A stretch of 35,488 nt of DNA. It comes from Clostridia bacterium. Its GTDB lineage: Bacteria > Bacillota > Clostridia > Oscillospirales > Acutalibacteraceae. The DNA is taken from the NCBI GenBank assembly GCA_017434855.1, contig JAFRUA010000057.1, forward strand, positions 1 to 35,488, in the 5' to 3' direction. Every line of letters begins with the position of its first letter. Positions within the stretch are counted from its first letter, which is position 1. This document shows, piece after piece, positions 9,382 through 14,994 of this stretch. A model generated the notes under the pieces. That model was not told the DNA's origin and made no database searches. It saw only the letters and a program-made list of their open reading frames with translations. Made by a program: the position numbers and the translations under genes.

Positions 9382-9410
9382 TTGACATCGTGAAAACGAT
9401 GCGGTATAAT
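9382..9410 (+). promoter_or_regulatory. Strong promoter for rplJ-rplL
   Basis: Perfect TTGACA (9382-9387) and TATAAT (9405-9410) boxes with a 17-bp spacer. The A-rich tract at 9361-9379 looks like an UP element and resembles those of the rpmG and tRNA promoters. Confidence 0.9.
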
Positions 9411-9531
9411 ACATGAGCTGTCCGAAGACAGCAGGTGTTTCGACTGAAAGGCATTTGCCGCCTGCCGAGGAATAGCGCACGATTTCAAAAGATCTGTGTG
9501 CCTGTTTTTCGGTGGAAAGACAGGCACTTTT
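9411..9531 (+). ncRNA. Ribosomal protein L10 leader
   Basis: The leader upstream of rplJ carries the pairing segments TCCGAAGACAGCAGGTG and CCTGCCGAGGA that are typical of the L10 leader of Bacillota, which binds the L10(L12) complex for feedback control. It begins at the promoter and ends in a terminator hairpin at 9498-9531, so control by premature termination is likely. The assignment rests on sequence recognition and position; a covariance search for the L10 leader would settle it. Confidence 0.8.
9498..9531 (+). terminator. Attenuator terminator of the L10 leader
   Basis: GTGCCTGT (9498-9505) pairs with ACAGGCAC (9520-9527), then four T. It lies 40 bp before the rplJ start, as expected for leader-controlled termination. 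Confidence 0.75.
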
Positions 9532-9570
9532 CATTGATCCGCCAAAAATTATTTCAGGAGGTGAATTCAT

Positions 9571-12038: not shown

Positions 12039-12926
12039 TTACATTGGTGGTCTCAGCAAGCTCTTTGATTCAATGTACTCGATACGGCTTAAGTAATTCA
12101 GATTTCGATCCACCTTTTCAGCGTGGTATTGCATGATATTGTTTTGATGGTTCATAAGTATTGAAACCGTCTGACCGGCATGTCGCATCGTTTCCGACAA
12201 CGTATACTGATTCTGTTTGATTTCGTCAAGACTTTGAAGAATCGCATCCAGCTTTGAAATAATGCGGTTTGCAAGTACCTCTGAATCAAATTTGTCGTAG
12301 GCGCCCGGCAAGTCGTTACGGGTTCCTGTTGAAAGGTAGTCATAGATCGAACATACGGCAACATAATTTTGATATTTTGGATGAAGTATTTGGAGGTTGT
12401 ATAACTTGGCTTTAATATCTTTACAGTCTTTTCCTAACTGACTGAGTTTATTTATATTCTCTAAGATAGATTCTTTCTCCAATCTTTCAAGTGAGCATCT
12501 TTTTAAGTCGTTTGTTTTTTTTGTGTTATAATCACTAAGTGCTTTTTCGTATATATTTACTTCCCTTTGCTGTATATTAAACATGCTTTTCTCATGTTTG
12601 AAAGTTGCATAGACACCCAATCCTAAAAAGCATGTGAGCGCAATCAAAGATAGTTTTATTAAAATTGCAAAAAAACCATTATGTAATTTATTGAAAGAAA
12701 TGATTGTTATGAAAAGAGAGACTATGGTGGCAATTATGAGCATGAATGGCCTGGGTGAGTAACGATGTTTCCAGGATTGAACTTCAACTGGTTTTATGAT
12801 TTTCTGTGGAACACCCAAGGTCAAAGCCTTTTTTTCCATCCGCTGAATTAAAGAATTTAAAACATAGATTGTCTCTTCCGTGTCGATGATCATTTTCAAA
12901 TACTCAAGCAAATCTTTCTTTTCCAT
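12039..12926 (-). CDS. Unknown membrane protein with coiled coils, AT-rich
   Basis: I do not recognise this 295-residue protein. Residues 1-36 are charged and helical; residues about 61-77 and 85-108 are two membrane helices; residues about 115-180 are Lys/Glu-rich and likely coiled coil; the C-terminal part holds YDYLSTGTRNDLPGAYDKFDSE and a helical segment (LDAILQSLDEIKQNQYTLSETM). Both ends probably face the cytoplasm. I chose ATG at 12926 because AAGAGGTCAAGAA precedes it. The frame stays open for another 89 codons upstream, but that stretch is the folded leader. Base composition is clearly richer in A and T than the neighbours, which suggests horizontal acquisition. It is possibly a signalling or stress protein, but no function is supported. 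Confidence 0.7.
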   Translation of the reverse strand: MEKKDLLEYLKMIIDTEETIYVLNSLIQRMEKKALTLGVPQKIIKPVEVQSWKHRYSPRPFMLIIATIVSLFITIISFNKLHNGFFAILIKLSLIALTCFLGLGVYATFKHEKSMFNIQQREVNIYEKALSDYNTKKTNDLKRCSLERLEKESILENINKLSQLGKDCKDIKAKLYNLQILHPKYQNYVAVCSIYDYLSTGTRNDLPGAYDKFDSEVLANRIISKLDAILQSLDEIKQNQYTLSETMRHAGQTVSILMNHQNNIMQYHAEKVDRNLNYLSRIEYIESKSLLRPPM

Positions 12927-12945
12927 TTCTTGACCTCTTTTCATG

Positions 12946-12979
12946 ATAAAAATAAAAAATGCGCCCATGAAGGACGCAT
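12946..12979 (-). terminator. Attenuator-like terminator upstream of the AT-rich gene
   Basis: On the minus strand ATGCGTCC pairs with GGGCGCAT around TTCAT, followed by T6, A, T5. It lies only 20 bp before the start codon and after the promoter, so the downstream gene can be made only when it is bypassed. Confidence 0.7.
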
Positions 12980-13141
12980 AAAAAGTGTCGTCCATCATGT
13001 CGCCAAACAGATTCTCACCAAAACGTGTTTTTGCAAACAACATCATAGCAAGATAGGACACACTTTTTTCAAAGTGAGTCGATGCTGTTTGCATATTCTG
13101 TTTTGGTGATTGGGACGAGAGTCTCCAAATCCGTTTGGCTC
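12980..13141 (-). ncRNA. Structured leader RNA of unknown class
   Basis: On the minus strand four helices can be read. A first hairpin CCAAA-CGGA-TTTGG lies at 13138-13125. An outer helix pairs TCACCAAAAC (13109-13100) with GTTTTGGTGA (13024-13015), ten perfect pairs. Inside it TGCAAACAGCATC (13093-13081) pairs with GATGTTGTTTGCA (13044-13032), thirteen pairs with one G-U. That pair would be an A-C mismatch on the other strand, so the minus strand is the folded one. Inside this sits CACTTT-GAAA-AAAGTG (13076-13061). The terminator at 12946-12979 follows. Overall order is promoter, folded domain, terminator, ribosome-binding site, gene. I do not recognise it as a known riboswitch class. Confidence 0.55.
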
Positions 13142-13145
13142 TTAT

Positions 13146-13174
13146 ATCGTACCACAAACCAACCGGAAAATCAA
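13146..13174 (-). promoter_or_regulatory. Promoter for structured leader and AT-rich gene
   Basis: On the minus strand TTGATT (13174-13169) and TACGAT (13151-13146) have a 17-bp spacer. The predicted start near 13140 coincides with the beginning of the first leader hairpin. Confidence 0.6.
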
Positions 13175-13229: not shown

Positions 13230-13261
13230 TTCCTTTGATTCTGTATGGATGGCTCGATTTC

Positions 13262-13297
13262 GCGTAGGGGCGGACCGATGTGTCCGCCCACCTACGC
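13262..13297. repeat. Hairpin repeat, copy 2 with extended stem
   Basis: The 23-bp core at 13267-13289 is the exact reverse complement of 2148-2170. Here flanking GCGTAGG (13262-13268) and CCTACGC (13291-13297) lengthen the stem. It lies after the lipase-like gene, before the terminator at 13197-13229 in the reading direction. Confidence 0.75.
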
Positions 13298-13338
13298 AAA
13301 AAGGGCTTTTATCTTGAAAAGCTGGAGTGTAGAACGAT

Positions 13339-14994
13339 TTACAGTTTCACTTCGCCGCGCAGCACGCCGCCGATCAGCGCAAAGAACGCTTTGACCCAGT
13401 CGACGAACGCCTGCAGCCTGGTCTGGAACGTCGGTTCCGCCACCGGGCGCGTCATGAATTCCAGGTCCTCGCAGTGGTCCTCTGTCATCGGTTCCACGGT
13501 TTTGGCGGCGTAATCGTTGATGCGAAAACGCGCATAGCCGGAGTTTTCCACCGTGACGCCGGTGCCGTTCAAAAACAGCTCCGCCAAGGGCCAGCACGCC
13601 CGGTCAAAGTCGTCGTGGTGGACGTTCTTGATGACCCACGTTGTTTCGGGATACATGGCGGTGGACAGGTCCACCTGCCTGTCTGCGGAGATATAATCGC
13701 CATAGCCCGCTGCGATCCGCGCGTCAATGTACGTCTGCGGCAGCGTTTCGCCGACCTTTGCGCAGGTTGCGCCCAGCGAAGAATCCTTCAGGCTGGCGAG
13801 GCTGTCAGACAGCTCGTCGCTCCCGGCGAAGATCGGCATGTTGAGCAGACCGTACTTTGCGATGACGCCCATGTGGATGCCGTACTCGTCACGGAACCGC
13901 TGATAAAGCGCGGTGTGCTGCGACGTGACGTGTGCGCGGTAATACCGGATCTTTTCGATCAGGCCGGCATACTGCGCGCGTTTTTCGCCGCCTTCTTCGC
14001 CGAACATGACGTCCAGCGCCCGGTCAAAATCCTCCTCGGCCACAAAGGTCCAATAGATCGGCTGGGTGCCGTAGCCGACGGCGAGGAACAGCGCCGGGAT
14101 CAGCGCCTTATAGAGCCGGGCGGCCAGTGCGTCCATCCGGTTGCAGAAACGGTCCATGCGCCCGTCCTGCACCATCAGGTCCAGCGTGCGCTGCACGATC
14201 TCGTCCGCCAGCTCCGGCACGTCGATGCCGATGCCGAAGCCGATCTCTTTGCAGAAGGTGGCCTGCCCGTAGTACCGCTGGATGCCGGCGGGGTCAAAGT
14301 CGATCTGCCCGCTGAAGCCCTTGCTGATCATGGTGCAGCCGTTGCCCAGCGTTTCGCAGTACAGGGCATTCTTGACCAGCCCTTCGCTGCCGTACTTTTC
14401 AAGATAGGCGTTCATCACGCTGCCGCCGAGGCACCGCGACGTGAGCGATACCTGCTGTTTGCCGGTGGCCTGCAAAACGGTTTTGATGTATTCATGCAGA
14501 CGGTCGACATGCTCGTACGGGTCCAGCCGCCAGTCAAAGTGGAACATATAGGAAAAGTAGCCGTATTTCCCGTTCCTGATCTGATCGGTTTGGGCCTGTT
14601 TTTCGGATTGTGCCAGCACGGCGGGCGACACGCCGGTGCCGTATTTCGGGTCGCCGTTGCCGTCAAGGCTCGCCTTTTCAAACAGGGGAGAAATCTCGTC
14701 ATAGACCGCCTGCCCGTAGCGGTCCCATTTGTTGAACAGCAGCCCTTCAAACAGGAAGGGGCGCAGGATGTTGACGGCGGCTTCAACGATCTTTTCTTTG
14801 TCGGTGTCGCCCAGCTTGAGGTCGCCGACATCGGCATAGACCTCGTTGCCCTCGGCGTCATAGATGGGTTCCCCGTTGCCGCGCAGATAGATGATCGGGG
14901 TCGGCTCATCCGCCGGCGGTTCTTCGGCAAAGGCGGGGACTGCCAGTGTCAGCAGCAGCGCAAAAGCCAGAAGCAGGGAGGTGAGTTTTTTCAT
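13339..14994 (-). CDS. Secreted alpha/beta-hydrolase (lipase/LCAT-like) with Cys at the nucleophile position
   Basis: This 551-residue protein has a signal peptide (residues 1-23, cut after AFA) and is exported. FHFDWRLDP (151-159) followed by a helix and then VSLTSRCLGGSVMNAYLEKYG (182-202) has the layout of LCAT/lipase-type hydrolases, where the DWR stretch precedes the nucleophile elbow GHSxGG. Here the elbow reads SRCLGG, putting Cys188 where Ser is usual. VHHDDF (458-463) is a good candidate for the catalytic His region. The protein ends in an aromatic/hydrophobic helix (VDWVKAFFALIGGVLRGEVKL). The start follows AAGGATGAT. Assignment to the fold is from motif spacing only; the substrate is unknown, and it may be inactive or a thioesterase-like enzyme. 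Confidence 0.7.
   Translation of the reverse strand: MKKLTSLLLAFALLLTLAVPAFAEEPPADEPTPIIYLRGNGEPIYDAEGNEVYADVGDLKLGDTDKEKIVEAAVNILRPFLFEGLLFNKWDRYGQAVYDEISPLFEKASLDGNGDPKYGTGVSPAVLAQSEKQAQTDQIRNGKYGYFSYMFHFDWRLDPYEHVDRLHEYIKTVLQATGKQQVSLTSRCLGGSVMNAYLEKYGSEGLVKNALYCETLGNGCTMISKGFSGQIDFDPAGIQRYYGQATFCKEIGFGIGIDVPELADEIVQRTLDLMVQDGRMDRFCNRMDALAARLYKALIPALFLAVGYGTQPIYWTFVAEEDFDRALDVMFGEEGGEKRAQYAGLIEKIRYYRAHVTSQHTALYQRFRDEYGIHMGVIAKYGLLNMPIFAGSDELSDSLASLKDSSLGATCAKVGETLPQTYIDARIAAGYGDYISADRQVDLSTAMYPETTWVIKNVHHDDFDRACWPLAELFLNGTGVTVENSGYARFRINDYAAKTVEPMTEDHCEDLEFMTRPVAEPTFQTRLQAFVDWVKAFFALIGGVLRGEVKL

Follow-up and report, generated by a model that had tools for sequence, protein, structure and literature searches.

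The window examined here, a stretch of 35,488 nucleotides from a Clostridia bacterium (Oscillospirales; Acutalibacteraceae; assembly GCA_017434855.1, contig JAFRUA010000057.1, positions 1-35,488), carries on its minus strand one member of a leader family that, to judge from sequence comparison, probably forms a new class that acts by attenuation of transcription, probably in response to a ligand, and often stands before genes of exported or surface proteins. We consider it likely that the element attenuates transcription in cis and that promoter, structured leader and terminator have been copied through the genome together, as a single unit. After removal of 8 duplicates, 191 distinct copies from Clostridia were assembled, which fall into four subtypes: A (16 copies, the window's included), B (136), B2 (9) and C (30). 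Their elements follow in the order promoter, P1 (the stem closing the whole leader), a long arm with variable stems, an A-rich tip loop, the strand R2, the antiterminator/terminator and a U-tract. The window copy and the gene behind it comprise the following features.

12039-12926, minus strand: open reading frame of a 295-aa orphan protein with a hydrophobic segment and no Pfam family above cut-off (Pfam scan).
13169-13174, minus strand: -35 box TTGATT, read in the sequence; the family-wide pattern is TTG-N16..19-TANNNT.
13146-13151, minus strand: -10 box TACGAT with an extended -10 TG (TGG, 13154-13152), read in the sequence.
13127-13139, minus strand: P1 5' arm (GCCAAAC...) at the predicted transcription start, a 13-bp run with 13014-13002, with covariation.
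13002-13014, minus strand: P1 3' arm (...GUUUGGC), from the same 13-bp run and covariation.
13100-13109, minus strand: outer helix of the long arm, 5' side TCACCAAAAC, read in the sequence and in the fold.
13015-13024, minus strand: outer helix of the long arm, 3' side GTTTTGGTGA, read in the sequence and in the fold.
13081-13093, minus strand: 5' side of P4, the stem adjoining the tip, whose sequence varies freely between copies with its pairing kept (fold; own versus swapped arms).
13032-13044, minus strand: 3' side of P4 (fold; own versus swapped arms).
13061-13076, minus strand: tip hairpin CACUUU-GAAA-AAAGUG (R0:R1), read in the sequence and in the fold.
13049-13069, minus strand: R1, the A-rich tip loop plus the 3' side of the tip, complementary to R2 (18 pairs; duplex -19.0 kcal/mol).
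12980-12999, minus strand: R2, the strand just 3' of P1, with R1 or the terminator 5' arm as partner (complementarity, energies, own-versus-swapped pairing).
12966-12976, minus strand: antiterminator 3' arm, partner of 12999-12989 (pairing; energy).
12954-12979, minus strand: intrinsic terminator (12979-12972/12966-12959) with U-tract (12959-12954), -12.7 kcal/mol; the terminator covaries.

The original prediction for this locus had described a promoter with 17-bp spacing (TTGATT at 13174-13169, a 17-nt spacer, TACGAT at 13151-13146), a 10-bp outer helix (13109-13100/13024-13015), a 13-bp inner helix with one G-U pair (13093-13081/13044-13032), a CACTTT-GAAA-AAAGTG hairpin (13076-13061) and a terminator (stem 12979-12972/12966-12959, U-tract 12959-12954) ahead of the gene, whose ATG lies at 12926; all of these are present on the minus strand. 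It had missed three features: P1 (13139-13127/13014-13002), an antiterminator at 12999-12989/12976-12966, and a stem tip (13069-13049) that is complementary to 12999-12980. RNA folding, which it had proposed as a check, gave -80.5 kcal/mol for the minus strand of 12927-13140 against -46.69 +/- 4.35 for shuffled sequences (z -7.77, 0 of 200 shuffles as good); the plus strand of the leader folds with z -5.18. Just upstream, a 551-aa reading frame (13339-14994, minus strand) has no Pfam match at E up to 0.1. The idea of a dispersed palindrome at 13260-13300 was rejected, its only matches (4 of 286 loci) being copies of the window locus itself.

A DNA search of the window's genome (2.74 Mb in 77 contigs, 97.9% complete) found five copies of the leader, before five different genes; the four further places have a layout identical to that of the window copy, with different stems. 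The family was searched for with a 55-nt model built from eight sequences, which spans the 3' part of the leader from the P1 3' arm to the U-tract. It matches 41 of 118 relatives at E <= 0.1, and a single relative has as many as 14 matches when weak ones are counted. Among the 91 places indicated by the model, 89 were read (G042:C18 and G025:C233, too near contig ends, were left out); L094, L105 and L107 proved to have no such leader, and L092 and L110 were omitted, the P1 5' arm being absent from the stretch. In a sample of the class, 38 of 391 genomes match at E <= 0.005, and 19 new loci shown from it have a P1 partner of at least 7 bp in 19/19 and a promoter in 15/19. All of these match counts are lower bounds, because the model scored a true leader, at locus L008, only at E 0.11. 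The phylum sample gave two matches in 398, one being the window's genome and the other (L258) a false match with neither P1 nor promoter, and spread beyond the class Clostridia was therefore rejected.

A 24-nt pattern for subtype B occurs in at least 120 stretches among genome contigs, the titles of which name Clostridia, Oscillospiraceae, Clostridiales, Ruminococcus and similar metagenome-assembled genomes, mostly from ruminant or rabbit gut; a single named strain, Pumilibacter intestinalis CLA-AA-M10, is also among them. Eight of 123 pattern stretches lack a P1 run of at least 8 bp, six of these being cut at the stretch start. Pattern scans of viral contigs returned three subtype B stretches (L236-L238) with one distinct leader, and none of subtype C or A, on which grounds a phage or viral origin was rejected; the three contigs may be prophage or misfiled host DNA. 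In genome G030, three complete units of promoter, leader and terminator stand in series before one small gene, and do so twice (L284 in G030:C31, L285 in G030:C53), with stems that differ between the units of one array. Two units stand in series in L286 (G286:C50), where each terminator is followed by GTCGCCAAACAC, which is the P1/R2 junction in reverse complement.

The promoter is fused to P1. In 170 of 189 copies a TTG-N16..19-TANNNT promoter stops 4-9 nt short of P1, where 6.1 are expected from shuffles; the gap between the -10 box and P1 is exactly 6 nt in 146 of the 189, and 151 have the extended -10 TG. The same association appears in 120 distinct stretches picked only by the 24 nt around P1/R2: a terminator comes next in 110/116 (shuffled 2/116), a P1 partner of at least 8 bp is found in 111/113 (25/115 in shuffled controls) and a promoter in 95/111. 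An AATA motif after P1 is enriched in subtypes B (110/136, 57.2 expected) and B2 (8/9, 3.0 expected), and not in A (2/16, 3.1 expected) or C (13/30, 11.0 expected).

In the compared copies, pairing persists through sequence change in P1, in the long stem, in the terminator and in R1:R2, for the last with weaker support within subtype A. Compensating changes, which the original prediction had proposed looking for in its helices, were thus found. Alignments were made of 42 of 120 non-redundant subtype B copies and of 21 of the 30 subtype C copies. In the former, 99.6% of the cells are paired in P1 and 99.3% in both R1:R2 and the terminator; 0 of 500 shuffles reach any of five whole-structure measures, and slid structures pair only 29.5-46.2% of cells. 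Both sides have changed in 21 of the 42 copies at each of the P1 column pairs 8/181 and 11/178, with all 42 paired. In the 21 C copies the P1 end is 100% paired, by C-G, U-A, G-C and A-U, and R1:R2 in fixed columns is paired in 85.2% of cells, two columns being mostly unpaired.

Pairing of each strand with its own partner was also compared with pairing to partners swapped between copies, in 185 of the 191 copies (six have no AAAA anchor). The own/swapped values for P4 are 36.1/17.9 in A, 29.2/17.0 in B, 35.2/18.5 in B2 and 29.7/14.9 in C, with own above the swapped mean in 133/133 subtype B copies; P1 (e.g. 18.9/11.8 in B) and the terminator behave likewise. For R1:R2 they are 26.3/24.7 in A, 30.2/29.8 in B, 25.7/23.8 in B2, 25.7/22.8 in C and 29.0/24.2 overall; in subtype A the own partner is only slightly better, and one permutation mean (26.7) lies above the observed 26.3. 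For the antiterminator, preference for the own partner is seen in A (22.3/19.0) and C (22.5/20.7) and is absent from B (18.7/18.5), where this pairing is nearly invariant and hence without covariation support. Terminator pairing in A is not clearly own-specific (7/16), and the tip hairpin in B2 is unsupported (own 10.1, swapped 10.4). When copies of the same subtype within a genome are compared, mean identity is 0.65 in R1 and 0.31 in the P4 arms. The concentration of conservation in the tip, the P1 ends and R2 while the stems drift suggests a binding site there.

R2 is the strand on which the putative switch turns. The 24 nt that follow P1 find their best complement at the A-rich tip in 183 of the 191 copies, and shuffled R2 reaches the observed score in 0.4% of shuffles for B, 1.9% for A, 6.2% for C and 5.6% for B2. 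Computed energies in the window copy are -12.7 kcal/mol for the terminator, -14.6 for the antiterminator, -19.0 for R1:R2 and -9.9 for the tip hairpin; R1:R2 is computed to be stronger than the tip hairpin in 185/185 copies, and in subtype B the median antiterminator (-9.6) is weaker than the terminator (-11.7). Antiterminator and terminator compete for one strand. Folds predicted without pseudoknots place the five own-genome copies in the antiterminator, both of two B copies in the terminator and two C copies in one each. R2 thus has two good partners, and a choice between them would decide termination.

We propose that transcription starts at or next to P1 and that the leader folds into the long arm with P1 as its base. 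R2 would emerge just after P1 closes, and would either pair back with R1 at the arm tip or wait for the terminator 5' arm (R3). R2 with R3 would form the antiterminator and allow read-through (ON); back-pairing, a predicted pseudoknot of 14-20 bp across a standing P1, would leave the terminator free, so that the RNA would end before the gene (OFF). A signal, probably a small molecule, would bind to the conserved core, made up of the tip, the P1 base and R2, and stabilise one of the two states; we lean towards a signal that favours OFF by stabilising R1:R2.

The genes behind the leader are diverse. The original prediction had placed the leader before an orphan membrane protein; the leader does precede 12039-12926, but it is not specific to that gene, many unrelated ones being preceded as well. 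Homologues of the window's protein occur in 10 other genomes, and of the 12 homologue loci whose upstream regions were checked, as had been suggested, only one (L008) shows the leader directly before the gene. L008 belongs to another family of the same order, and its leader has a 13-bp P1 (GCCACACAAATCT/AGATTTGTGTGGC). The other own-genome copies stand before genes for a DUF4234 protein (C30), a protein with LRR_5/BspA repeats (C16) and two proteins with signal-peptide-like starts and only weak Pfam matches in the stretch scanned (C69, C19). An open reading frame with a ribosome site lies within 450 nt in 171 of 191 copies, leaving 20 with no qualifying frame; the distance from terminator end to frame start has a median of 38 nt, with 120 copies within 60 nt, raw counts that carry no background terminator-to-ORF rate. 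By a crude measure, 108 of the 171 downstream frames have an N-terminal hydrophobic segment. Pfam matches are scattered, LRR_5 (BspA type) being the commonest (14/53 and 15/118), followed by CHAP (3/53), DUF6273, DUF6809, SHOCT, zinc ribbons, EcoRI methylase and others. DUF6809 was matched in 4/53 and 3/118 downstream proteins, and small proteins behind several leaders (L087, L091, L095, L096, L100 and others) have a LYYGN-like N-terminus in common.

Several other readings of these data were weighed. A rival view already voiced in the original prediction, that the region is a translated N-terminal extension of the downstream protein, draws on the window, where the frame is open from 13193 through the gene; an open frame is found in only 7 of 171 copies, however, and in 1 of 16 in subtype A, and for the family this coding reading is refuted and can hardly be credited at all. 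Control of the attenuator by a translated leader peptide of the trp type seems very improbable. A Shine-Dalgarno-like string, a start codon and at least 6 codons do occur inside the leader in 96/136 B, 8/16 A, 11/30 C and 3/9 B2 copies, counts that have no shuffled control, but the GGAG of R2 in subtype B would by itself supply such a string, and transcription from the first base of P1 would leave no room for a ribosome site before P1. Very improbable, too, is a mobile MITE-like DNA repeat with palindromes that reflect transposition instead of RNA function: it would account for many copies before unrelated genes, yet the stem sequences differ between copies with complementarity kept, and the units have gene-directed orientation, fixed promoter spacing and a terminator.

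A stand-alone small RNA acting in trans, with the gene behind it only read through at low level, would fit the conserved promoter and terminator, the two or three complete units in series with no gene between and the copies that lack a qualifying frame; we regard it as unlikely given the short median terminator-to-frame distance, the competition of antiterminator with terminator in subtypes A and C and the fact that both G030 series end before a gene. A stronger contender, though one that we on balance doubt, keeps the same attenuator and has it switched not by a small molecule but by an RNA-binding protein or other macromolecule that recognises the tip and R1/R2. The held sequence of R1 beside random P4 arms is what a protein site would be expected to give, and the preceded genes are diverse; against this, the antitermination factors looked for are not common to the leader-bearing genomes. 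CAT_RBD has no match in 13 of these genomes (control genomes are positive in 4/14). ANTAR is present in 8/13, the window's included, and missing in 5. NusG has one match in 11/13, with a second, separate one only in G134 and two adjacent pieces in G007. GGDEF has no match in the window's genome (97.9% complete), and is present in 6 and absent in 7 of the 13. These distributions argue against c-di-GMP, LoaP, PTS-type (LicT/SacY) antiterminators and ANTAR proteins as a common factor, and each is unlikely to be the family-wide one; ANTAR control may hold for the window's genome alone.

The original prediction of a structured, undescribed attenuator is borne out by the compensating changes, by the competition between antiterminator and terminator and by Rfam 15, which at gathering score gave no match over the leader in the window or in 20 loci (the matches there being tRNAs and, elsewhere, an L10 leader). 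Permissive searches with the window leader, L002-L005, L117 and L076 returned sub-threshold matches only, and a known Rfam 15 family was thus rejected. The L10_leader of the window lies at 9404-9540 (plus strand; 51.5 bits, gathering 44), before the ribosomal L10 gene. In the open-access papers searched, passages of PMC11109978, PMC8632094 and PMC8040213 among them, no description of the leader was found; one of the thousands of candidates of PMC8040213 could be the leader RNA. As a more speculative extension, we offer tentatively an undescribed class of RNA switch in which promoter, sensor and terminator make up an indivisible cassette that increases in number within genomes, with termination decided by a loop-to-base pseudoknot. 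Several insulated subtypes, each with an R1:R2 code of its own, would share a genome, and a common signal would switch surface and accessory genes in gut Clostridia. If the attenuator reading holds, many uncultured gut Clostridia control exported and surface proteins, such as those with BspA-type repeats or CHAP, by a regulator so far unrecognised, and the family may point the way to a new signal molecule. The family also offers covariation-rich material for studying long-range pairing in transcription termination.

Among known systems, T-box leaders of Bacillota are likewise long and have an antiterminator and a terminator; the present leader, however, has no Rfam T-box match and the genes that it precedes are not those of amino-acid metabolism. 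The c-di-GMP riboswitches (GEMM and c-di-GMP-II) are clostridial, occur in many copies per genome and precede surface-protein genes. They differ in that the leader has no Rfam match and GGDEF is not general in leader-bearing genomes. Trp-type attenuators resemble it in having segments that pair as 0:1 and 2:3, or as 1:2 and 3:4, whereas here P1 forms the 5' end of the transcript and a leader peptide is only a candidate. Similar in plan are transcription-terminating riboswitches, in which a leader before the gene has an outer P1, a strand shared by the antiterminator and another pairing, and an intrinsic terminator with the ribosome-binding site and start codon shortly after; as in these, the present family combines a leader position with an expression platform. 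It departs from them in matching no Rfam class, in the fixed distance of its promoter from P1 and in its tip-to-base R1:R2 pairing. What is new here, as read from the aligned copies, is a putative transcription attenuator that unites a promoter-fused, multi-copy layout with tip-to-base pairing.
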